Of a stretch of DNA of 64,000 nt, positions 15,817-27,569 are shown one piece after another. Origin of the DNA: Shimia sp. (GTDB taxonomy: Bacteria; Pseudomonadota; Alphaproteobacteria; Rhodobacterales; Rhodobacteraceae). The notes below the pieces were generated by a model, which worked only from the letters and a program-made list of their open reading frames with translations, was not told where the DNA came from and did not search any database. Position numbers and translations under genes: made by a program. Each line of letters opens with the position of its first letter. Position 1 is the stretch's first letter. The stretch lies in contig JAAENN010000332.1 in assembly GCA_024224295.1 (NCBI GenBank), positions 1 to 64,000 on the forward strand. The letters are read 5' to 3'.

Positions 15817-16401
15817 GTGACCGCCAAGCTCACCATCCTGATTGTCGAACCCGACAAGACCCGCGCCGATGCCATCATCGACAGTCTGATTGCCACCGGC
15901 GACCACCACATCCGCGTGCTGTCGGAATCCACAGGCCTCGCCCGCTCCGTTGCCGAACTCAACCCGGACCTCGTGCTGGTTGATGTCGCCAATCCCAGCC
16001 GCGACGCCATCGACGCGCTTACTCTGGCCTCTTCGCCGCTTGAACGCCCTGTTGCCATGTTTGTCGACCGCTCCGACGACGGTCTCACCAAAGCCGCGAT
16101 CGAAGCAGGCGTGTCGGCCTATGTGGTCGACGGCATGCACCCGGACCGCATCAAACCTATACTCGACGCCGCCATCGCCCGCTTTCACATGTTTTCCCGC
16201 ATGCGCTCAGAGCTTGAGGCCACCAAACGCGCACTTGAAGAACGCAAAATCATCGACCGCGCCAAAGGCATCCTCATGCGCGCCCGCGACATGAGCGAAG
16301 ACGAGGCCTATGCCTTGATCCGCAAAACCGCGATGAGCCAGAACAAAAAAATCGCCGACGTCGCTCAGGCGCTTGTCACTGCCTCGGAGTTACTGTCATG
16401 A
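15817..16401 (+). CDS. nasT: NasT, ANTAR-domain antiterminator of nitrate assimilation
   Basis: 194 residues. Residues 1-120 form a receiver-like domain: acidic VEPD (Glu11, Asp13) and LVDVANP with Asp56 are kept, but the conserved Lys after strand 5 is replaced (YVVDG instead of YVVKP), in line with control by partner binding rather than phosphorylation. About residues 130-192 form the ANTAR RNA-binding domain (LEERKIIDRAKGILMRARDMSEDEAYALIRKTAM). In known systems NasT binds a two-hairpin leader RNA and prevents termination unless NasS holds it; such a leader lies at 17673-17781. It starts with GTG and overlaps nasS by 4 bases. Confidence 0.93.
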   Translation: MTAKLTILIVEPDKTRADAIIDSLIATGDHHIRVLSESTGLARSVAELNPDLVLVDVANPSRDAIDALTLASSPLERPVAMFVDRSDDGLTKAAIEAGVSAYVVDGMHPDRIKPILDAAIARFHMFSRMRSELEATKRALEERKIIDRAKGILMRARDMSEDEAYALIRKTAMSQNKKIADVAQALVTASELLS

Positions 16402-17576
16402 GAACCCTACCACTCTCCGTGGGCTTCATGCCGCTGGTCGACGCCGCTCCCCTGATCATCGCCCGCGAACTGGGCTTTGCCGAAGAGGAAGGCCTTGCGC
16501 TGAACCTGCAAAGCGCACCCAGCTGGTCGACCCTGCGCGACCGGCTCATCTTGGGCCAAATCGAAGCGGCGCATATGCTCTCCCCGGTGCCTGTCGCCAT
16601 GGCGCTAGGGCTTGGCGGCCTGCCCACCCAACTCGATGCCCTCAGCGTTTTATCCATAAACGGCAACGTGATAGGCATCTCCAACGCATTGGCGGATGAG
16701 ATCGCCGCACAAGGCGACATGCCCGACTTCCTCGACGCCCAAGCGGCAGGCAAAGCCCTCGCAACCCTCAACAGGCCGTTGCGCATCGGCGTGCCCTTCC
16801 CGTTTTCGATGCATGCGGAACTGCTGCATTACTGGCTCTCCGCCTCTGGCCTGAACGTCGCGCAATCGCTCGATCTGCGTACCATTCCGCCACTCCTGAT
16901 GGCCGACGCCATCGCCGCGGGTGAAGTGGACGCCTTCTGCGTCGGCGAACCGTGGGGGTCCATCACGGTCGAACAAGGCGGCGGGTCGCTCCTGCTGCCC
17001 GGTGCCGCCATCTGGCAATTCGCCCCGGAGAAAGTTCTTGCCGTCCGTCGGGATTGGGCCTCCGCCGAAGACGACCTCACAGGTCGCCTGATGCGGGCCG
17101 TTTGGAAAGCAGGCCGTTGGTTGGGGCGCGAAGACAAACGCGCCACCGCCTCCGAAATCCTAAGCTGGCCGGAATACCTCGGCGTCTCAACGGAAATCAC
17201 TGAACGCGCGCTGACCGGCAACCTCCTCATCAACGCGCGTGGGAAATCACGCACCGTGCCGCGCATGATGGAGTTCTTTGATGGTGCCGCCAGCTTCCCT
17301 TGGAAAAGCCAGGGCGCTTGGATCGGCGCGCGTATGGCGGCCCGTTTTGGCTTGGACCGGGCCCGATCTGCCTCCAAGGCCGCCGCCGTTTTCCGCTCCG
17401 ATCTCTACCGCCGTCACCTCGGACCTTTGGGCGCGGACCTTCCTGCAGCCTCCGAGAAGCTCGAAGGCGCGCTGGCCTCCCCGACAACTGCGGCAACAGA
17501 CTCCGGTACCCTGATTCTGGGGCCGGATCGCTTCTTTGATGATCAAGTTTTCGACCCGCGCCGCCCAGAATGCTGA
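16398..17576 (+). CDS. nasS: NasS, nitrate-sensing partner of NasT
   Basis: 392 residues of the NrtA/CmpA binding-protein family (VGFMPLVDAAPLIIARELGF, PFPFSMHAELLHYWL, DAFCVGEPWG) but without a signal peptide, so cytoplasmic. That feature and the overlap with nasT identify it as NasS, the sensor that sequesters NasT when nitrate or nitrite is absent and releases it on ligand binding. The paralogous periplasmic NrtA is encoded next at 17833, and the two share the VGEPW motif. Its 3' end runs into the leader that carries the NasT target. Confidence 0.93.
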   Translation: MRTLPLSVGFMPLVDAAPLIIARELGFAEEEGLALNLQSAPSWSTLRDRLILGQIEAAHMLSPVPVAMALGLGGLPTQLDALSVLSINGNVIGISNALADEIAAQGDMPDFLDAQAAGKALATLNRPLRIGVPFPFSMHAELLHYWLSASGLNVAQSLDLRTIPPLLMADAIAAGEVDAFCVGEPWGSITVEQGGGSLLLPGAAIWQFAPEKVLAVRRDWASAEDDLTGRLMRAVWKAGRWLGREDKRATASEILSWPEYLGVSTEITERALTGNLLINARGKSRTVPRMMEFFDGAASFPWKSQGAWIGARMAARFGLDRARSASKAAAVFRSDLYRRHLGPLGADLPAASEKLEGALASPTTAATDSGTLILGPDRFFDDQVFDPRRPEC

Positions 17577-17672
17577 CTTTTTGTGCAAATGCGGAGATCA
17601 ACCGCTGCATTGCAGCAAAACCATCACTTCGACCTTGAGACTGCGCCGTCTGGCGCGCCTAATGACATCAAC

Positions 17673-17714
17673 GCGCAGCAAGGACGCTACGCAGACCGCC
17701 CCGAATGATTGGGG
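17673..17714 (+). promoter_or_regulatory. ANTAR-type two-hairpin RNA target (NasT binding site)
   Basis: Hairpin 1: stem GCGCAGC/GCTACGC (one C-A mismatch) closing the hexaloop AAGGAC (17680-17685). Six bases later hairpin 2: CCCCG/UGGGG closing the hexaloop AAUGAU (17704-17709). Both loops have A at position 1 and G at position 4, the rule for ANTAR targets. It sits in the leader of the nitrate transport and reduction operon just before a terminator, the arrangement known for NasR/NasT antitermination. Confidence 0.82.
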
Positions 17715-17728
17715 ACCTATATGAGCAA

Positions 17729-17781
17729 AGCCGCTCGACCCGCCGAAATTCCTCCTTCGGTGCTGGTCGCGCGGCTTTTTT
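17729..17781 (+). terminator. Attenuator terminator of the nitrate assimilation operon
   Basis: AGCCGCTCGACC (17729-17740) pairs with GGTCGCGCGGCT (17765-17776) with one mismatch; an inner CCGAA/TTCGG stem lies at 17743-17760; six T (17776-17781) follow. It lies 14 bases after the ANTAR hairpins and about 50 bases before nrtA, so it must be overridden by NasT for the operon to be expressed. Confidence 0.85.
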
Positions 17782-17832
17782 CGTTCTCGGCCCTCTCCTC
17801 CATCCAAAGGGCACAACATGAAGGACAGTAAT

Positions 17833-19197
17833 ATGAAACGCATTGCTTCGATCCTGGCAGCCACGACCATGCTCGTGTCTCCGGCCCTGGCGGAACTGGA
17901 ACTCGAAAAAGATGAGCTGACGTTTGGCTTCATTAAACTGACCGACATGGCGCCGCTCGCCGTGGCCTATGAGCAGGGCTATTTTGATGACGAAGGCCTA
18001 TTTGTCACGTTGGAAGCACAAGCCAACTGGAAAGTGCTTCTGGACGGCGTGATCGACGGCCAACTGGATGGCGCGCACATGCTGGCAGGTCAGCCGCTCG
18101 CCGCTACAATTGGGTACGGCACTGAGGCGCACATCATCACACCATTCTCAATGGACCTGAACGGCAACGGCATCACCGTGTCCAACCAGATTTGGGAAGA
18201 AATGAAGCCGCACGTGCCGCTGATGGACGATGGCCGCCCGCAACACCCAATCTCCGCATCCGCGCTGAAGCCGGTGGTCGAAAAATACACCTCCGAAGGC
18301 AAGCCATTTAACATGGGCATGGTGTTCCCTGTTTCCACGCACAACTACGAACTGCGCTACTGGCTCGCCGCCGGTGGTCTGGAACCAGGTTATTATTCCC
18401 CCGAAAACATCACCGGCCAGATCGGCGCAGACGTTCTGCTGTCCGTGACCCCACCACCACAGATGCCGGCCACCATGGAAGCGGGCACCATCTACGGCTA
18501 CTGCGTAGGTGAGCCTTGGAACCAGCAGGCCGTTTTCAAAGGCATCGGTGTCCCGGTGATCACAGACTACGAACTCTGGAAGAACAACCCGGAGAAAGTC
18601 TTCGGCCTGAACGCCGAGTTTGCCGAGAAGTATCCAAACACCACGCTGGCCGTTACCAAGGCGCTGATCCGCGCCGCCATGTGGTTGGATGAAAACGACA
18701 ACGCCAACCGCGAAGAAGCCGTGCGTATCCTCAGCCAACCGGAATATGTGGGCGCGGACTACGACGTAATCGCGAACTCCATGACCGGCACCTTTGAGTA
18801 TGAAAAAGGCGACAAGCGTGAAGTCCCGGACTTCAACGTGTTCTTCCGCTACAACGCGACCTACCCCTTCTACTCTGACGCAATCTGGTACCTGACCCAG
18901 ATGCGCCGCTGGGGCCAGATCGCCGAGGCCAAGCCGGACAGCTGGTATGACGACGTGGCCAAATCCGTCTACAAACCCGCGATCTACCTCGAAGCCGCAC
19001 GTCTGCTGGTGGACGAAGGCCTCGCCAACGAGGTCGACTTCCCATGGGACAGCGACGGCTACAAAGCGCCAACCCCATCTGCGGACATCATCGACGGCAT
19101 CGCCTACGACGGCAAAGCGCCAAATGCCTATCTAGACAGCCTGCCGATTGGACTGAAAGGCGATCAGCGAGTTGTCGGAACAGAGGTGCAAGGCTGA
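17833..19197 (+). CDS. nrtA: Nitrate/nitrite ABC transporter substrate-binding protein
   Basis: 454 residues. NrtA/NasF family: [74 protein letters not shown]. The signal peptide (about residues 1-20, ending SPALA) is Sec-type with no lipobox cysteine visible. The ATG at 17833 has AAGGA seven bases upstream and gives a clean signal peptide; an ATG at 17818 with AAGGG upstream is a fair alternative adding five residues. It binds nitrate in the periplasm for NrtB and the double ATPase. A 190-bp spacer with a hairpin separates it from nrtB. Confidence 0.94.
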
Positions 19198-19388: not shown

Positions 19389-20471
19389 ATGACCACAATC
19401 GACCCGCAAAACATCGCAGATGAAGAGCGCGAAGCCCGCCGCGCCCGCCTCTTCACCCGCATAAACAAGGCCGACACTTGGTTCCAAGTCCTCGGTCTCA
19501 GCTTCATCACTCCGATTCTGAAAGCCGCCGCTGGCGACAACCCAAAAGCGCAAGCCTCCGAAATTTGGCGACTTTTGGGCGTTCCGCTTCTGGCCATCGC
19601 AGTCTTCCTAATGCTCTGGGGCACTCTCGCACCAAAGGTCCAAACCTCCCTTGGCGCTGTTCCTGGTCCAAAACAAGTCTGGACCGAAGCCGTGCTTCTC
19701 CACGAAGACGCGCAAGCAAAGGCCGCCAAAGAAGCGAAATTCAACGAGCGCGTTGAAGCCCGCAACGCCAAATTCATCGCCAACGGACAGCCCGAAAAAG
19801 TCAAAGATATCAAGTACACAGGCAGTCCCAGCTACTACAATCAGATTTGGACTTCGATCAAAACGGTGTTCTTTGGCTTCCTGATCGGCACCGTGATTGC
19901 CGTGCCAATCGGCATCATGGCCGGCCTCTCGCCTTACGCCAACGCAGCCGTGAACCCGCTGATCCAGATCTTCAAACCGGTCTCTCCGCTTGCATGGCTA
20001 CCCATCGTGACCATGGTGGTTTCCGCCACTTATACCGTGGATGACGGGCTGTTCTCTAAGTCCTTCCTAACCTCTGCAATAACCGTAACCCTATGTTCTT
20101 TATGGCCAACTCTGATCAACACCGCGCTTGGTGTGGCTTCCATCGACAAGGAGTTGGTGAACGTCTCCAAGGTTCTAAAGATGAACACTTGGACCAAGAT
20201 CACCAAGTTGGTGTTGCCGTCTGCCCTGCCGCTGATCTTCACTGGCCTGCGCCTGAGCCTTGGCGTTGGCTGGATGGTTCTGATCGCCGCTGAAATGCTG
20301 GCACAAAACCCAGGCCTCGGCAAATTTGTCTGGGACGAGTTCCAAAACGGCTCCTCCAGCTCGCTCTCCAAGATCATGGTCGCGGTCTTCACCATCGGAA
20401 TCATCGGCTTCATGTTGGACCGTCTGATGTACGCGATCCAATCGCTCTTCACCTTCACATCCAACCGGTGA
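19389..20471 (+). CDS. nrtB: Nitrate ABC transporter permease
   Basis: 360 residues. A long polar N-terminal part (about 60 residues) precedes the first membrane segment near residues 62-80; the core is NrtB/SsuC-like, with PVSPLAWLPIVTMVV and the ATPase-contact loop VLKMNTWTKITKLVLPSALPLIFTGLRL. It forms the membrane channel for nitrate. The stop overlaps a GTG eight bases before the ATPase ATG, so the two are coupled. The extended N-terminus is longer than in cyanobacterial NrtB. Confidence 0.92.
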   Translation: MTTIDPQNIADEEREARRARLFTRINKADTWFQVLGLSFITPILKAAAGDNPKAQASEIWRLLGVPLLAIAVFLMLWGTLAPKVQTSLGAVPGPKQVWTEAVLLHEDAQAKAAKEAKFNERVEARNAKFIANGQPEKVKDIKYTGSPSYYNQIWTSIKTVFFGFLIGTVIAVPIGIMAGLSPYANAAVNPLIQIFKPVSPLAWLPIVTMVVSATYTVDDGLFSKSFLTSAITVTLCSLWPTLINTALGVASIDKELVNVSKVLKMNTWTKITKLVLPSALPLIFTGLRLSLGVGWMVLIAAEMLAQNPGLGKFVWDEFQNGSSSSLSKIMVAVFTIGIIGFMLDRLMYAIQSLFTFTSNR

Positions 20472-20476
20472 TCGCC

Positions 20477-22156
20477 ATGAGTGTTCTGAAATTTGACAAT
20501 ATCTCCAAGAGCTTCGGCGAAGGCACCGCCAAAACCGACGTTCTAAAAAACATCAATCTCGAAGTGCAGGAAGGCGAGTTCCTCGTTCTCCTGGGCTTCT
20601 CCGGCTCCGGCAAAACCACGCTGATCAACCTCATGGCAGGCCTCGAAATGCCCACCTCTGGCAGCGTGACGTTCAAAGGCGAAAAGATCACCCAACCGGG
20701 CCCAGAGCGCGGCGTGATCTTCCAGTCCTACTCGCTGATGCCTTGGTTAACCGTGAACGGCAACGTGCGCCTGGCGCTGGACAGCGTGTTCCCCAACATG
20801 CCAAAGGCCGAAAAAGAAGAGCGCGTTGGACACTACATCAAGATGGTTGGCCTCTCCCACGCCGCTACTCGTCGACCAGCCGAGCTGTCCGGCGGTATGC
20901 GTCAACGTGTAAACGTAGCCCGCGCCTTGGCGATGAACCCCGAAGTTTTGCTTCTGGATGAACCTCTTAGCGCGCTGGACGCTTTGACCCGCGCCAACCT
21001 CGCGGATGAGATCGAAGCGATCTGGGATGCTGAGAAAAAGACCTGCGTGCTGATCACAAATGACGTGGACGAAGCGATCATCCTCGCCGACCGCATCATT
21101 GCGCTAAACCCCGAAGGAACCTTGGGTCAAGAGTTCAAAGTGGACATCCCGCGCCGTCGCGATCGCATGGAAATGAACCACCATGAAGGCTTCAAAAAGC
21201 TACGCGCCGAAGTCACCAAATACCTGATGGACGTGGGCATCGCCGCCAAGGCCGAAGGCACTAAAACGCTGCCAGACGTGACCCCAATCCACGGTGTGCC
21301 TTCTGCGGTCAAAGATGCTCAAAAGGGCATGATTGGTCATAATTTCTTGGACTTCTCGCAGCTACACAAGATCTACCCAACGCCCAAAGGACCGCTGACT
21401 GTGGTCAAAGACTTTGATCTCAAAGTCCAGCGCGGCGAGTTCATATCTCTGATTGGTCACTCAGGCTGTGGTAAATCCACGGTTCTGACCATGGCGGCAG
21501 GTCTTAACCCAATTTCCAAAGGTGGCATCCGTCTTGATGGTCGCCACGTGGAAGGCGCGGATCCAGAGCGCGCCGTTGTGTTTCAATCGCCCAACCTCTT
21601 CCCATGGCTGTCTGCCAAAGAAAACGTGGCCATTGGCGTGGACAAGGTCTACCCGAAAGCCAGCCAAGGCGAGCGCCAGGACGTGGTGGAGTACTACCTG
21701 GAGCGTGTTGGCCTTGCCGACGCCATGGACCGCCCTGCGCACTCTATGTCCAACGGCATGAAACAGCGTGTGGGCATCGCCCGCGCCTTTGCTTTGTCTC
21801 CGAAACTTCTGCTTTTGGATGAACCTTTTGGCATGCTCGACAGCCTTACTCGCTGGGAGCTGCAAGAGGTTCTCATGGAAGTCTGGGACCGCACCAAAGT
21901 GACCGCGATCTGTGTCACGCATGATGTAGATGAAGCCATTCTGTTGGCAGATCGCGTAGTCATGATGACCAACGGCCCACAGGCGACCATTGGCAAGATC
22001 GTCGACGTAGACTTGCCGCGCCCACGCACGCGCAAAGCCCTTCTCGAGCACACTGACTATTATCGCTATCGCCAGGATGTGCTCAATTTCCTTGAAGAAT
22101 ACGAGCACGGCGCCAAACCAAAGCCAAAACCCGCCAAAGCCATTGCCGCGGAGTAA
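20477..22156 (+). CDS. Nitrate ABC transporter ATPase, two fused nucleotide-binding domains
   Basis: 559 residues with two NrtD-type ATPase domains in one chain. Domain 1: GFSGSGKTT, LSGGMRQR, LLLDEPLSALD, but the H-loop reads LITNDVDEA with Asn near residue 193 in place of the switch His. Domain 2: GHSGCGKST, MSNGMKQR, LLLDEPFGMLD and a normal H-loop, VTHDVDEA. Cyanobacteria use separate NrtC and NrtD; here the NrtA-like tail of NrtC is absent and the second domain replaces it. The ATG at 20477 gives MSVLKFDNISKSF; a GTG at 20468 overlapping the permease stop is also in frame. Confidence 0.92.
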   Translation: MSVLKFDNISKSFGEGTAKTDVLKNINLEVQEGEFLVLLGFSGSGKTTLINLMAGLEMPTSGSVTFKGEKITQPGPERGVIFQSYSLMPWLTVNGNVRLALDSVFPNMPKAEKEERVGHYIKMVGLSHAATRRPAELSGGMRQRVNVARALAMNPEVLLLDEPLSALDALTRANLADEIEAIWDAEKKTCVLITNDVDEAIILADRIIALNPEGTLGQEFKVDIPRRRDRMEMNHHEGFKKLRAEVTKYLMDVGIAAKAEGTKTLPDVTPIHGVPSAVKDAQKGMIGHNFLDFSQLHKIYPTPKGPLTVVKDFDLKVQRGEFISLIGHSGCGKSTVLTMAAGLNPISKGGIRLDGRHVEGADPERAVVFQSPNLFPWLSAKENVAIGVDKVYPKASQGERQDVVEYYLERVGLADAMDRPAHSMSNGMKQRVGIARAFALSPKLLLLDEPFGMLDSLTRWELQEVLMEVWDRTKVTAICVTHDVDEAILLADRVVMMTNGPQATIGKIVDVDLPRPRTRKALLEHTDYYRYRQDVLNFLEEYEHGAKPKPKPAKAIAAE

Positions 22157-22159
22157 AAC

Positions 22160-24610
22160 ATGACACAGAAACTCATCATCATAGGGGCTGGGATGGCCGC
22201 GGGCCGCGCGCTCGAACATCTTTTTGAAGTAGCCCCAAACGCTTACGACGTAACCCTTTTTAACGCGGAACCGCGTGGCACCTACAACCGGATTATGCTC
22301 TCTCCCGTGCTGTCGGGCGACAAGGTTTTTGACGAAATCGTCACTCACACTGCTGAATGGTATGAAGAAAACGGTGTCACTCCACGATTTGGCGAAAAAA
22401 TTGTGAACATCGATCGATCTGCGCAGACGGTTACATCTGAGAATGGAGAAGTGCTGCACTATGACAAACTCATCATCGCTACCGGGTCTAATCCTTTCAT
22501 CATCCCACTACCGGGACATGATCTGAACGGTGTGATTGCTTACCGCGATCTAGAAGACACCAACACCATGATCGCTCTTGGGGACAAACCCGGCGCCAAA
22601 GCTGTGGTTATTGGTGGTGGTCTTCTCGGACTAGAGGCCGCTGCCGGCTTGGCGCTTCGCGGAGTGGACGTGACCGTGGTGCACATCATGGGCCACCTGA
22701 TGGAACGCCAACTGGACGAGGCCGCCGGTTACCTTTTGCGCAAGGCGCTCGTGGACAAAGGCATCACCGTCAAATGCTCTGCCAACTCCAAGGAAATCCT
22801 TGGCGAGAACGGCAAGGTCAAAGCACTCTTGCTGGATGACGGCACCGAATTGCCTTGCGATCTTCTGGTGATGGCCGTCGGCATCCGCCCCTCTGTGGCT
22901 CTGGCCGCTGAGGCCGGATTGGCCACAGGCCGCGGCATCCATGTGGACGACCAGATGGTCACCTCGGACGAAAACATCCTGTCGCTTGGCGAATGTGTAG
23001 AACACAACGGAGATATCTTCGGTCTTGTGGCGCCGATCTTTGACCAAGCTAAAGTGATTGCCAAAACCCTTGCGGGTGAAGAGGCGGCGTTTTCGAACAA
23101 GGAAGTCGCCACCAAACTCAAGGTCACAGGCTGCGATCTCTTCTCAGCCGGCGATTTCGCCGATGCAGACGGGCGCGAAGACATCGTCTTCCGCGATCCC
23201 GCACGCGGCGTCTACAAACGCCTTGTGATTGAAGACAACCGCATCGTCGGCGCCGTCATGTATGGCGACACAGCAGACGGCAACTGGTTCTTTGGCCTGA
23301 TCAAAGACCGAGAGGACATCTCCGAGATGCGCGATACGCTCATCTTTGGCCCCGCATACCAAGGAGGGTCCCCCCTGGACCCTATGGCAGCCGTTGCAGC
23401 CTTACCGGATGACACCGAAATCTGTGGCTGTAACGGCATTTCCAAAGCACAAATCATCGCCGCCATCAACGACGGCGCCCATACATTGGACGCGGTCAAA
23501 TCCATCTCCAAAGCTGGTTCTTCCTGCGGCAGTTGCGTGGGTCTGGTGGGTGATCTTCTTAGCTTTACGCTCGGCGACGAGTTCAAAATGCCCGAGAAGG
23601 AAGTGGTCTGTAAGTGTACCGACCTTTCCCACGACGATGTCCGCAAGCTGATCGTCGCCAAAGAGTTGAAATCCATCCCGCAAGCCATGCAGGAACTGGA
23701 TTGGAAAACCACCTGCGGCTGCCACGTGTGCCGCCCTGCGCTGAACTACTACATGGTCTGCGCTTGGCCCGGCACCTACGAGGATGACGGCAAAAGCCGC
23801 TTCGTCAACGAACGCGTGCACGCCAACATCCAGAAAGACGGCACTTATTCGGTTGTGCCCCGTATGCTCGGCGGGATCACCACCCCGAATGAGCTGCGCG
23901 CCATCGCCGATGCCGCCGACAAATTTGACGTGCCAACGGTCAAGGTCACAGGTGGGCAGCGCATCGACCTTTTGGGCGTCAAAAAAGAAGACTTGCCCGC
24001 CATCTGGTATGACCTTGGCAAGGCCGGCATGATGTCTGGCCAAGCCTATGCCAAAGGCCTGCGCACGGTGAAAACCTGTGTGGGATCGGATCACTGCCGC
24101 TTTGGCACGCAGGACTCCACCGGTCTTGGCATCCAGATCGAAGACGCCATGTGGGGCGCATGGTCGCCACATAAGTTCAAGCTCGCTGTCAGCGGCTGCC
24201 CCCGCAACTGCGCCGAGGCGACATGCAAGGATCTTGGCATCATTTGTGTGGACAGTGGCTATCAGATCCTTGTCGGCGGCGCGGCAGGGCTTGATCTGCG
24301 CGAAACAGACCTTTTGGTCCAAGTCGCCACCGAAGAAGAAGCCATCGAAGTTTCTTGCGCCTTCTACCAACTTTATCGCGAAGGGGCGCAATACCTGCAT
24401 AGGCCTTACAAATGGATCGCCAAAGTAGGGCTGGACTGGGTCAAGGAACGGGTTGTCGACGATCTGGAAAATCGCAAGGCGCTGGCCGAGCGCTTCCACT
24501 ACAGCCAGAAGTTCTACCAGATCGATCCATGGGCTGAACGCGCCAAGCAAGGCGTTGACGCCCATGAATTCGCCCCCATCGCGGACTTTACAAAGGTGGA
24601 AGCAGAATGA
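22160..24610 (+). CDS. nirB: Assimilatory nitrite reductase [NAD(P)H] large subunit
   Basis: 816 residues. The N-terminal FAD/NAD domain starts LIIIGAGMAAGRALEHL, with a second nucleotide motif VVIGGGLLGLEAAAGLA. Two BFD-type [2Fe-2S] modules follow: CGC near 421 with CGSC near 457, and CKC near 484 with CGCHVC near 519. The siroheme-[4Fe-4S] part has CVGSDHCRFG near 638 and SGCPRNCAEATC near 677. It reduces nitrite to ammonium in the cytoplasm with NirD. The stop overlaps the nirD start (ATGA). Confidence 0.97.
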   Translation: MTQKLIIIGAGMAAGRALEHLFEVAPNAYDVTLFNAEPRGTYNRIMLSPVLSGDKVFDEIVTHTAEWYEENGVTPRFGEKIVNIDRSAQTVTSENGEVLHYDKLIIATGSNPFIIPLPGHDLNGVIAYRDLEDTNTMIALGDKPGAKAVVIGGGLLGLEAAAGLALRGVDVTVVHIMGHLMERQLDEAAGYLLRKALVDKGITVKCSANSKEILGENGKVKALLLDDGTELPCDLLVMAVGIRPSVALAAEAGLATGRGIHVDDQMVTSDENILSLGECVEHNGDIFGLVAPIFDQAKVIAKTLAGEEAAFSNKEVATKLKVTGCDLFSAGDFADADGREDIVFRDPARGVYKRLVIEDNRIVGAVMYGDTADGNWFFGLIKDREDISEMRDTLIFGPAYQGGSPLDPMAAVAALPDDTEICGCNGISKAQIIAAINDGAHTLDAVKSISKAGSSCGSCVGLVGDLLSFTLGDEFKMPEKEVVCKCTDLSHDDVRKLIVAKELKSIPQAMQELDWKTTCGCHVCRPALNYYMVCAWPGTYEDDGKSRFVNERVHANIQKDGTYSVVPRMLGGITTPNELRAIADAADKFDVPTVKVTGGQRIDLLGVKKEDLPAIWYDLGKAGMMSGQAYAKGLRTVKTCVGSDHCRFGTQDSTGLGIQIEDAMWGAWSPHKFKLAVSGCPRNCAEATCKDLGIICVDSGYQILVGGAAGLDLRETDLLVQVATEEEAIEVSCAFYQLYREGAQYLHRPYKWIAKVGLDWVKERVVDDLENRKALAERFHYSQKFYQIDPWAERAKQGVDAHEFAPIADFTKVEAE

Positions 24611-24945
24611 GTGATTTCATCGAAATTGGCAGTATCAACGACATCCCTCTACGCGGTGCGCGCGTCGTGCGCACCCATCACGGCGACATCGCGGTTTTCC
24701 GCACGGCCACAGGTAACGTTTATGCATTGGATGAATATCTTCCAGGCAAGGCAGGCCCACTGTCCAACGGCATCCAGCACGACGAAAAAGTGACTGACCC
24801 GATGTACAATTGGGTGTTTGATCTGACCACGGGCGAAGCGCTGGGCGCTGACGAGGGGAAAGTCGAAACTTACGAAGTCAAGTGCGTGGCGGGCCGCATA
24901 CACATTGCGGCCAAAGCCGTGATCCCGTCGGTGGCTGCAGAATGA
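24607..24945 (+). CDS. nirD: Nitrite reductase small subunit
   Basis: 112 residues with a Rieske-like fold lacking the Fe-S ligands: where Rieske proteins have CPHKGGPLS this chain has LPGKAGPLSNG, which is normal for NirD. It associates with NirB. It overlaps both nirB and nasA by 4 bases (ATGA at each junction), so reductase subunits are made in a coupled way. Confidence 0.95.
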   Translation: MSDFIEIGSINDIPLRGARVVRTHHGDIAVFRTATGNVYALDEYLPGKAGPLSNGIQHDEKVTDPMYNWVFDLTTGEALGADEGKVETYEVKCVAGRIHIAAKAVIPSVAAE

Positions 24946-27569
24946 CGTGCTCTATCTCCACCACCTGTCCCTACTGCGGTACGGGTTGCGGCGTACTTGC
25001 TAGGCCGGATGGTAACGGTGGGATTGCTGTAAAAGGAGACCCGGAACACCCTGCAAACTTTGGTAGCCTGTGCTCCAAAGGATCAGCACTCGCGGAAACC
25101 GTAGGCCTTGAAGGTCGCTTACTTACGCCGCAGATCAACAAACAGGCGGCAGAATGGGGCGAGACGCTGGACTTAGTTGCTGGAAAATTCCGTGAAACTA
25201 TCGATGTTCACGGGCCCGATTCCGTTGCTTTCTATGTCTCCGGTCAGTTACTGACGGAGGACTACTACGTCGCGAACAAGCTGATGAAAGGCTACATCGG
25301 CTCCGCCAACATCGATACCAATTCTCGCCTTTGCATGGCCTCCACCGTCGCCGGTCAAAAACGCGCCTTTGGTACAGATACCGTGCCTGGTACTTACGAA
25401 GACTTAGAATTGGCAGACTTGCTGATCATCACAGGGTCCAACTTGGCCTGGTGCCACCCGGTGCTCTATCAGCGCATCGCCGCCGCGAAAGCAAAGCGGC
25501 CTGCGATGAAAGTAGTTGTGATCGATCCACGGCGGACCGCCACCTGCGACCTTGCAGACATCCACCTACCCATAGCACCCGGCACAGATGTTGCGCTTTT
25601 CAACTACCTTTTCGAGCAAACACACACTCAGGGCGCATTGGATGCGGATTTTGTTGCAAACCACACAGATGGCTTCGGAGACGCGCTGGACGCTGCAAAT
25701 GCGGCAGATGTCTCCATCACCGGATTAACCAGACAGAAACTGAGCGCGTTTACTCGACTTTGGCTGAACACCGATAAAACCGTCACGATTTTCTCACAAG
25801 GCGTCAATCAATCCGATCACGGTACCGACAAAGTGAACGCCATTATCAACTGTCATCTGGCCACTGGACGGATCGGCAAGCCGGGCAGTGGCCCTTTTTC
25901 GGTGACTGGGCAACCAAACGCAATGGGCGGCCGCGAGGTGGGCGGTCTCGCCAATATGCTCGCATGTCACTTGGACATCGAAAACTCGACACACCGAGAT
26001 ACCGTACAGAATTTTTGGCAGTCGCCAGCGATGCCGACACAACAGGGTCTTAAGGCTGTCAATATGTTTGAAGCTGTCGCCTCAGGCAAAATCAAAGCTT
26101 TGTGGGTGATGTGCACAAACCCGGCCGTGAGCATGCCCAACGCACGCGAAGTTCGTACAGCTATTGAAAATTGCAATTTTGTCGTAGTTTCAGACATGTT
26201 TGCAAACACCGACACCGCAAAACTCGCCGACGTGTTGTTGCCGGCCACAGGATGGGGCGAAAAAGACGGTACAGTCACCAACTCCGACCGTACGATCAGC
26301 CGCCAAAGAGCCGTTCTAGCTGCGGCAGGAAAGGCGCGTCACGATTGGGACATTATTTGTGATGTGGCCCGCCGCATGGGATTCTCGACTGGATTTGATT
26401 TCTCTAGCCCAGCCGAGATCTTCCGAGAGCACGCGGAGCTGTCTGGGCATGCCGCTGATCTCGGCAAGGATTTCGACATCTCGGGATTGGCAGACCTAAC
26501 TGATCCTGCGTACGATGCTATGAAGCCGACGAAGTGGCCGATGTCCCGAAAAAAGGCTTACATGGGAACCAGGTTCTTTGCCGATGGTCAGTTTTTCACC
26601 CCTGACGGCCGCGCCAAAATTGTCCCGATAGAACAACCATTACTTACCAGAAAGGGGAACGATCGACCCTACCGTCTCAATACCGGCAGGATACGCGACC
26701 ATTGGCACACGATGACTAGGACCGCGCGGGCGTCGCGATTGAACCAACACTATGGCGAACCTTTCATAGAGATTCACCCGCAAGATGCCACAGAACTCGA
26801 GATAACAGACGCAGATTTAGTAAATGTGCACAATGATCTTGGTGCAGTCACTTTACGCGCATTGATCACAGACCGAGTAGCCAAGAAAAACACTTTTGCC
26901 CCAATTCACTGGGCTGGTGTGACGTCGTCACAATCCATTGTTTCAGATTTGGTACCTCCAGTGGTTGATCCAATTTCGGGACAGCCGGACAGTAAATCTG
27001 CACAGGTGAGCCTCTCCAAGTACAACGCCAGATGGTATGGTTACGCGCTGAGTACCAAAGAACCGCACCCTTCGACCCGTTATTGGGCAAAGGTCAAGCT
27101 AAACACCGGTTGGCAGATTGAATTAGCTGATGACACGCAAGAAGACAACTGGATCGATTTTGCGCGAAACTTGTTTGATGTGGACGGACTTGATTGTATG
27201 AGCTTTTTCGACGCACCAAAAGCTCGCGCTCGAGTCGCCTTTCATCAAGACGGAAACTTAGTTGCGGCTCTATTCGTGGACCGCATTCCAGTTCAAGTCT
27301 CTCGATCTTTTGCAAGCGCGATGTTGGGTCATCCAGATCAGAATTTCTTGGCTGGACGTCCTAGCTTGACCCAAGTCGATCCGGGGCCGACCGTGTGTGC
27401 CTGTTTCAATGTTGGTGTTAACACAATTTTGTCTTCAATAGAGAAGCAGAACCTGACCACAGTAGAGCAAATTGGCGCAGCTCTCTCTGCCGGTACAAAC
27501 TGTGGATCCTGCCGCCCGGAGTTGGCGACTCTCTTGGTTGATTCCCCAAAAAGTTTGGCGGCAGAATAA
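24942..27569 (+). CDS. nasA: Assimilatory nitrate reductase catalytic subunit
   Basis: 875 residues, molybdopterin (bis-MGD) oxidoreductase. The N-terminal [4Fe-4S] ligands are Cys9, Cys12, Cys16 and Cys44 (CPYCGTGCGV...LCSKG). A C-terminal BFD-like [2Fe-2S] module (VCACFNV...NCGSCRPEL, about residues 820-870) is typical of the NasA subtype. There is no Tat signal, so the enzyme is cytoplasmic and reduces nitrate to nitrite. The ATG at 24942 overlaps the nirD stop. No NasB-type reductase follows, so the electron donor is either a ferredoxin/flavodoxin or encoded elsewhere. Third codon positions look more AT-rich than in nirB. Confidence 0.96.
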   Translation: MTCSISTTCPYCGTGCGVLARPDGNGGIAVKGDPEHPANFGSLCSKGSALAETVGLEGRLLTPQINKQAAEWGETLDLVAGKFRETIDVHGPDSVAFYVSGQLLTEDYYVANKLMKGYIGSANIDTNSRLCMASTVAGQKRAFGTDTVPGTYEDLELADLLIITGSNLAWCHPVLYQRIAAAKAKRPAMKVVVIDPRRTATCDLADIHLPIAPGTDVALFNYLFEQTHTQGALDADFVANHTDGFGDALDAANAADVSITGLTRQKLSAFTRLWLNTDKTVTIFSQGVNQSDHGTDKVNAIINCHLATGRIGKPGSGPFSVTGQPNAMGGREVGGLANMLACHLDIENSTHRDTVQNFWQSPAMPTQQGLKAVNMFEAVASGKIKALWVMCTNPAVSMPNAREVRTAIENCNFVVVSDMFANTDTAKLADVLLPATGWGEKDGTVTNSDRTISRQRAVLAAAGKARHDWDIICDVARRMGFSTGFDFSSPAEIFREHAELSGHAADLGKDFDISGLADLTDPAYDAMKPTKWPMSRKKAYMGTRFFADGQFFTPDGRAKIVPIEQPLLTRKGNDRPYRLNTGRIRDHWHTMTRTARASRLNQHYGEPFIEIHPQDATELEITDADLVNVHNDLGAVTLRALITDRVAKKNTFAPIHWAGVTSSQSIVSDLVPPVVDPISGQPDSKSAQVSLSKYNARWYGYALSTKEPHPSTRYWAKVKLNTGWQIELADDTQEDNWIDFARNLFDVDGLDCMSFFDAPKARARVAFHQDGNLVAALFVDRIPVQVSRSFASAMLGHPDQNFLAGRPSLTQVDPGPTVCACFNVGVNTILSSIEKQNLTTVEQIGAALSAGTNCGSCRPELATLLVDSPKSLAAE

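Follow-up and report, generated by a model that had tools for sequence, protein, structure and literature searches.

The nrtA operon of this Rhodobacteraceae genome is very probably controlled by a nitrate-responsive antiterminator that governs nrtA, nirBD and the nitrate reductase gene, and that NasT would read through three successive hairpins with six-base loops, here called P1, M and P3. By its anatomy and its relatives, the leader in front of nrtA is a NasT (ANTAR) antitermination leader, and the main idea of a preliminary description of this DNA, namely an ANTAR-type leader for NasT before the nitrate operon, holds. While the switch type itself is known, the Rhodobacteraceae leader is, to judge from its sequence, a variant of the 'dual hexaloop' ANTAR antiterminator that has three loops instead of two. 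The evidence is computational throughout: it shows three hairpins that are conserved and covary, and a P3 that cannot form together with the terminator.

The nasTS-nrtA locus and the NasT protein

Within the 64,000-nucleotide stretch analysed here (the window), nasT and nasS, a 241-base gap (17577-17817) and the nrtA operon follow one another on one strand. NasT and NasS are encoded directly upstream of the leader, as had been described. The nasT gene (15817-16401, + strand) encodes a 194-residue protein with a receiver-like and an ANTAR domain (Pfam ANTAR, 77.8 bits), the only ANTAR match in a profile search of the host genome; the closest named NasT among those found, from a Shimia MAG (L134), is 97% identical, the host's own genome having possibly been excluded from that search. 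Overlapping the nasT stop, as partner gene of the ANTAR protein, is a nasS-like gene (16398-17576, +) for an NMT1-like protein (Pfam NMT1_2, 211.8 bits) and presumed nitrate sensor, which we take to be NasS from its gene position and the established knowledge of nasTS. The first gene of the controlled operon, nrtA (17818-19197, +; Pfam NMT1_2, 321.8 bits), is of the nitrate-binding type and was named by homology and operon. It is followed on the + strand by the block 19389-27569, comprising nrtB (19389-20471), nrtCD (20468-22156), nirB (22160-24610), nirD (24607-24945) and, at its end, an assimilatory nitrate reductase gene listed at 24882-27569, with its true start probably at about 24942.

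The receiver domain of NasT scored 27.8 bits against Response_reg, below the cut-off of 30.2, and may be a pseudo-receiver; the usual receiver lysine seems to be replaced (SAYVVDG). Six residues by which EutV contacts its hexaloop, according to the accessible part of the literature, are kept in NasT and invariant in 16 NasTs: R142, K143, K149, E160, Y164 and M172 of EutV correspond to R143, K144, K150, E161, Y165 and M173. EutV K147 is an arginine in NasT, and N173 and R175, whose double change impaired RNA binding by EutV in the portion of the report available (PMC8934654), are not kept. Apart from these three positions, the ANTAR domain of NasT is thus predicted to have the RNA-contacting residues.

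The best promoter match in the leader, TTGAGA-17-CCTAAT (17635-17663, +), would place the transcription start at about 17670, with the -10 element just 5' of P1. The best match ends within one 8-base band before the first hairpin in 31 of 67 leaders, a position that seems favoured, and the mean score of 7.19 against 6.95 in shuffled sequence is near chance, so that this promoter is kept as tentative. Across the whole window, Rfam gave no match at the gathering score; between 17550 and 17850, at E values up to 10, it gave four, none from an ANTAR family, the best being ALIL at 15.2 bits against a gathering score of 50.

Anatomy and folding of the leader

The leader lies on the + strand and begins with P1 (17673-17692), the putative recruitment hairpin, with the loop AAGGAC at 17680-17685 and a C-A mismatch in its stem, followed by M (17699-17714), with the loop AAUGAU at 17704-17709 and a G-U closing pair. 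Both hairpins, each with A at loop position 1 (A1) and G at position 4 (G4), had been reported previously and are present, as are the mismatch and the G-U pair; tuning by either of the latter is not needed for the mechanism proposed below. A third hairpin with a six-base loop, GAGC-AAAGCC-GCUC (P3, the putative antiterminator hairpin; 17722-17737, loop AAAGCC at 17727-17732, again with A1 and G4), had been overlooked. The gaps between neighbouring hairpins are 6 nt (P1-M) and 7 nt (M-P3), and P1 and P3 are about 30 nt apart.

In the intrinsic terminator (17727-17778, +), AAAGCCGC (17727-17734) pairs with GCGGCUUU (17771-17778). The former is at once the P3 loop, the beginning of the P3 3' stem and the terminator 5' arm, and the latter, the 3' arm, extends into the tract of six T (17776-17781); terminator and tract had been reported previously and are present. 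Since P3 sits in the terminator 5' arm, the earlier statement that hairpins and terminator are separate is incorrect, and the mechanism requires no special polymerase contact. Nor does the terminator simply follow 14 bases after the second hairpin, as P3 intervenes; the presumed linker 17715-17728, for which refolding had been invoked, holds the start of the antiterminator hairpin.

Folding agrees with this anatomy. The leader RNA 17673-17785 folds as P1, M and terminator at -52.2 kcal/mol versus -36.4 in shuffled sequences (z -4.5; none of 200 shuffles as good). Ended at 17740, the RNA from 17673 folds as exactly three hairpins (-22.0 kcal/mol, equalled by 4 of 200 shuffles). Taken singly, P1 is unexceptional, with 23 of 200 shuffles matching its energy, whereas M and P3 are exceptional (equalled by 2 and 4 of 200, respectively); for M the folding program favours a 4-nt loop that closes an extra A-U pair. 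A simple consensus scan for terminators in the window listed two others, fewer than the 4.7 in shuffles, and not the one in the leader, probably because its stem has bulges.

Conservation and covariation in the family

We found nrtA in 74 of 198 family genomes, read 73 leaders and aligned 72 of them as a training set. One genome was left out with its nrtA match at a contig end (G116), and L063, in which the script detected no P3, was kept out of the alignment although GAGU-AACGCA-GCUC is present by eye. Manual placement was used for P3 of L021, L036 and L057 and for P1 of L039, and the script missed P1 in 6 of the 72 leaders in one search, or in 5 of 72 training and 1 of 56 further leaders in another. 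These 56 further leaders, found by a model of P1, M and P3, bring the family set to 128. In one family genome (G126; L123:2907-3447) the leader is present, but tblastn shows nrtA and nrtB as shortened, almost merged pieces, which could reflect a true deletion or faulty assembly.

The P1 loop has A1 in 71 and G4 in 72 of the 72 aligned leaders, which bears out the proposed conservation of the loop A and G, with the reservation that most rows centre on a hairpin for which both letters were a search requirement. When the best upstream hairpin was instead chosen blind to letters, with loops of 3-8 bases, its loop had six bases in 45 of 72 leaders, 42 of these with both A1 and G4; another loop size scored best in the remaining 27. 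Both letters are also present in all 56 further leaders. The stem of P1 varies freely in sequence and still pairs, four of its five inner pairs being doubly changed in 22 to 36 leaders. After realignment of the 72 leaders, 87.7% of cells are paired versus 71.9 +- 0.7 in shuffles, and 185 cells are doubly changed versus 53. The percentage paired, the doubly changed cells, the pair types and the covariation score beat all 500 shuffles as well as slid versions, and the count of doubly changed pairs was reached by 5 of 500 shuffles in the model-fitted and 102 of 500 in the MAFFT alignment; these controls leave the relatedness of the leaders in, and the realigned set is fitted to the model. A covariance search of homologous nrtA leaders had been suggested as a check, and P1 is found to be conserved and to covary. 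The loop is closed by C-G in 70 (P1), 72 (P3) and 57 (M) of 72 leaders in the model-fitted alignment, M of the window having G-U, and a preference for such closure in ANTAR hexaloops is reported in the accessible part of PMC7496416.

P3 is the most conserved hairpin, nearly invariant in sequence, with its inner four pairs intact in 72 of 72 training and 56 of 56 further leaders. Its loop, sought with AxxG in the training set, has A1 in 70 of 72 and G4 in 72 of 72 there, and A1 in 54 and G4 in 56 of the 56 further leaders, so that G4 is found in 128 of 128; the four loops with G1, in L021, L057, L169 and L170 (GAGGCC, GAAGCC and twice GCAGCC), are natural variants of A1. Overlap and exclusion, as expected of an ANTAR leader, were found both in the folds with and without the 3' arm and in the family, as the P3 loop and 3' stem can pair with the terminator 3' arm at seven or more of eight positions in 124 of 128 leaders, with G-U counted; this count is a maximum by construction, because the arm was taken to be whichever stretch close to a T tract complemented P3 best. 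Loop position 3 and its partner in the arm read A-T in 92 leaders, G-C in 20, C-G in 3, T-A in one and G-T in one, and are mismatched in 11 (C-T 6, T-T 5). Since P3 and the terminator arm share sequence, antiterminator and terminator are mutually exclusive; as the terminator stem, too, engages A1 and G4 of P3 in pairs, their conservation alone is no proof of binding.

In the host genome, the model gave one strong site, the leader itself (48 bits, E 1.5e-7; a member of the training set), with the next best at 18.4 bits (E 0.68). Four weak candidates for further NasT targets in this genome (L076-L079), with 18.4 bits as their best score, were set aside, L076, L077 and L078 having no terminator by eye in the parts read. 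Among 80 named NasT loci, the model matched 63, and 62 of the matches lie beside nasS, 56 of those not identical to training leaders; the match in L172, far from nasT, was not used. The 17 loci that gave no match comprise eight of a triple-hexaloop Rhodobacter/Paracoccus type, four of a Paracoccus nasA type and five others (L196 with two hairpins, L182 and L201 with no readable leader, the ambiguous L193, and L179, which was only scanned).

The middle hairpin

The P1-P3 linker has a median length of 31-32 nt, with a hairpin inside, and is thus not the short linker of a two-hairpin element. M fills about half of it, with median gaps of 10 nt before and 5-6 nt after M, and about 16 nt stay outside the folded hairpin. 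Helix M is 68% paired with three of four pairs doubly changed in the MAFFT alignment, and 83% paired with four of four in the model-fitted one. To normalise its loop, weak closing pairs were opened in data and shuffles alike; A1 and G4 then occur together in 25 of 66 leaders of the training set and in 24 of 55 of the further ones, as compared with 2.5 +- 1.6 and 2.7 +- 1.7 for shuffled linkers, with no more than 8 in any of 100 shuffles. The signature is therefore about ten times commoner than in shuffled linkers, a null that leaves shared ancestry uncorrected; the model behind the 56 further leaders rewards an M hairpin, which biases them towards M-bearing leaders. Among 95 M loops of 6-7 nt, 69 have A1, 68 have G4 and none has G at position 5. 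M is looser than P1 and P3, however, with A1, G4 or both missing from the normalised loop in 72 of 121 leaders and 44 seven-base against 51 six-base loops. As only 13 of 65 linkers rank among the best 5 of 100 shuffles in folding energy, single-sequence stability was not used as proof for M.

Support for M beyond the model-selected leaders comes from eight leaders of Rhodobacter/Tabrizicola/Paracoccus type that the model missed and that carry an M-type hexaloop, with three AxxG hexaloops each (L150-L153, L155, L158, L167 and L177). In L153 these are GGGC-AACGAC-GCCC, ACCGC-AAGGAU-GCGGU and GGC-AACGAC-GCC, the third continuing into GCCACC, an arm of a GGUGGC terminator. When stretches of 90 nt were folded at minimum energy, all three hairpins formed in seven of the eight, and only the first in L153. 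Visual inspection showed the overlap with the GGUGGC arm of the terminator; a script that wanted the loop itself inside the terminator arm found none in the eight, and L155 and L167 have only three T after the terminator. Taken together, the second hairpin of the preliminary description is most likely a real, though looser, member of a three-hexaloop array.

Comparison with known antitermination leaders

The eutP leader of Enterococcus faecalis, read by EutV, shares A1/G4 hexaloops, a second hairpin that overlaps the terminator and a REC-ANTAR protein with the Shimia leader. EutV is controlled by phosphorylation, NasT instead by release from NasS; moreover, as far as the published account could be accessed, eut genes have two hexaloops 5-12 nt apart, whereas the Shimia leader has three, the outer pair about 30 nt apart. 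In the same partly accessible source literature, a 14-nt linker drastically lowers induction by EutV, and 20 extra nucleotides abolish antitermination in vitro. According to the available portion of PMC8934654, only a single loop is bound by the EutV dimer at any time, from which the authors derived a model of successive binding, and why two hexaloops are needed when the crystallised ANTAR dimer holds one is given there as an open question. A natural three-loop array with a variable middle loop would be a clean test of hand-over versus spacing.

The nasF leader of Klebsiella oxytoca likewise shows nitrate-controlled antitermination with P1 and a terminator-overlapping P2; NasR, however, is a one-component NIT-ANTAR sensor acting on two hairpins, unlike NasS-NasT and the three-hairpin leader (PMC3369936, accessible part). 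In Bradyrhizobium diazoefficiens, NasT acts by antitermination at the nosR leader, a target in denitrification rather than nitrate assimilation as here (PMC6759348, accessible part). The rli55 RNA with EutX combines a dual hexaloop with one extra hexaloop that has G4 (PMC8934654, available portion), and is, in the same excerpted account, an RNA that sequesters EutV rather than a leader in which the final hexaloop counteracts a terminator.

Paracoccus denitrificans has the same regulators and gene order and belongs to the same family, but a different transporter gene follows in its nasA operon, and its leader has the third loop GACGAU and, by eye, no clear U tract. In this organism, the NasS-NasT complex comes apart with nitrate, and NasT causes a shift of the nasA leader (PMC3795266, in part). 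Mutation of hairpin HI caused a severe deficiency in expression, and mutation of HII changed little with nitrate and gave a two-fold rise with ammonium (PMC5424462, in part); the leader is described with two hairpins in the accessible text. By our own count in strain DSM 413 (L156), the third hairpin ends 91 bp upstream of the start codon, matching HII, and the extended P1 stem ends 137 bp upstream, matching HI. That HI is the first hairpin is not certain, given that the middle hairpin (134-120) is close to 137 and that the paper used another strain. A hairpin with the loop AAUGAU lies between the first and third hairpins in P. denitrificans, and the Paracoccus nasA leaders L156, L178 and L189 alike have G1 in the third loop, no clear U tract by eye and an AxxG hairpin in between. 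The weak effect of HII, together with the lack of a clear U tract, implies that family members need not all work alike.

Three hexaloops in one leader were not found in the open-access literature, whose coverage falls short of most subscription papers; in their accessible parts, the main ANTAR papers describe two hairpins and note an extra hexaloop for the EutX RNA only. A survey of actinobacteria, as far as its available text goes, was restricted to motifs of two hairpins whose linkers measure 2-25 nt (PMC8164766), a filter that would drop or mis-pair three-hexaloop leaders.

Proposed mechanism and alternative explanations

The leader is probably read by nitrate-released NasT. In the absence of nitrate, NasT would be held by NasS, P1, M and the terminator would fold, and most transcripts would end at 17776-17781. 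With nitrate present, NasT would be freed from NasS and bind P1 as it emerges from RNA polymerase, next M and next P3; P3 would thereby be kept closed and AAAGCCGC withdrawn from the terminator, allowing the polymerase to read through. The release of NasT from NasS by nitrate, its binding to the leader and the need for the first hairpin are carried over here, by analogy, from the literature on relatives.

We tentatively propose that P1 passes a NasT dimer on to M, and M to P3, so that it would cross about 30 nt, more than a two-hexaloop leader could span, in short steps that an ANTAR dimer can bridge, and we lean towards M itself binding NasT as an intermediate station. The outer spacing breaks the EutV rule and each adjacent spacing in the window obeys it, and hand-over is therefore the best explanation. 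It is also possible, though doubtful, that M is only a spacer that folds the linker away and brings P1 and P3 together, NasT never contacting M. That M stems are strong even where G4 is missing (score 12.2 versus 9.7 in shuffles, 53 leaders), that only about 16 nt remain outside the folded M and that EutV, in the accessible part of its literature, tolerates short linkers only would all suit a spacer; however, a spacer has no need for A1 and G4, which are yet enriched about tenfold and present in all eight triple leaders, and the lengths of linker and M are uncorrelated (r 0.09). If hand-over is true, ANTAR switches would be tunable in how many hexaloops they carry, with the arrays of L259 and L267 described below as further cases.

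Two other readings concern the role of P3 and the terminator. In one, P1 and M are the binding pair, as in the preliminary description, while P3 matters just as a part of the terminator and NasT acts on the polymerase or by refolding. Both hairpins indeed have A1 and G4 in the window, only 6 nt apart, and in P. denitrificans the first two AxxG hairpins lie about 10 nt apart while the third has G1. We nevertheless consider this pairing unlikely, since P3 is the hairpin with unbroken inner pairs and G4 throughout the family and overlaps the terminator, and since in other alphaproteobacterial families the terminator-overlapping hexaloop has another hexaloop 2-9 nt upstream in 10 of 15 loci found (35 scanned). 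It is less probable still that the stem 17727-17778 is a constitutive terminator of nasTS, with nrtA served by its own downstream promoter and the hairpins incidental. A terminator after nasS would be expected, as at any operon end, and the promoter scan covered the sigma-70-type consensus only; within that consensus, though, no promoter-like match was seen on the + strand between terminator and nrtA, and the hairpin set, besides being conserved across leaders of the family, turns up again ahead of siroheme synthase genes at a distance from nasTS.

Occurrence in other families and at second sites

Outside the family, we scanned 35 NasT regions from 34 of 40 other-family alphaproteobacterial genomes with a NasT match. 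In 15 of them a terminator-overlapping hexaloop has another hexaloop upstream, the gap being 2-9 nt in 10, and no such pair was seen in the other 20. Near nasT, L259 (about 5531) has the hexaloops AAAGUU, AAGGAC and AACGCU before a terminator, the middle one read by eye, and L267 (about 4389, minus strand as fetched) has AAUGAU, AAUGGC and AACGAC before its terminator. Among the scanned regions outside the family, two hexaloops are thus common and three are a recurring variant. A class-wide search with the model gave nine matches outside the family at E 0.01 or less, of which L125 adjoins nas genes and is the NasTS-nrt locus of another family, with the three-hairpin form. For the other eight and the additional family match L124, tblastn detected no nas gene within the 7-10 kb retrieved, and they were taken as chance.

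Three of the 198 family genomes carry an extra element of P1, M, P3 and terminator, at sites absent from model training: before the siroheme synthase gene cysG in L120 (2529-2590) and L122 (6878-6939, minus strand), and before a uroporphyrinogen-III methyltransferase (SUMT) gene in L121 (2296-2358). Without its 3' arm, L120 has a different lowest-energy fold around P1. Siroheme is the cofactor of NirB, and the placement before cysG and SUMT genes therefore fits control by nitrate; through these second elements, NasT may tie cofactor supply to nitrate in these three relatives.
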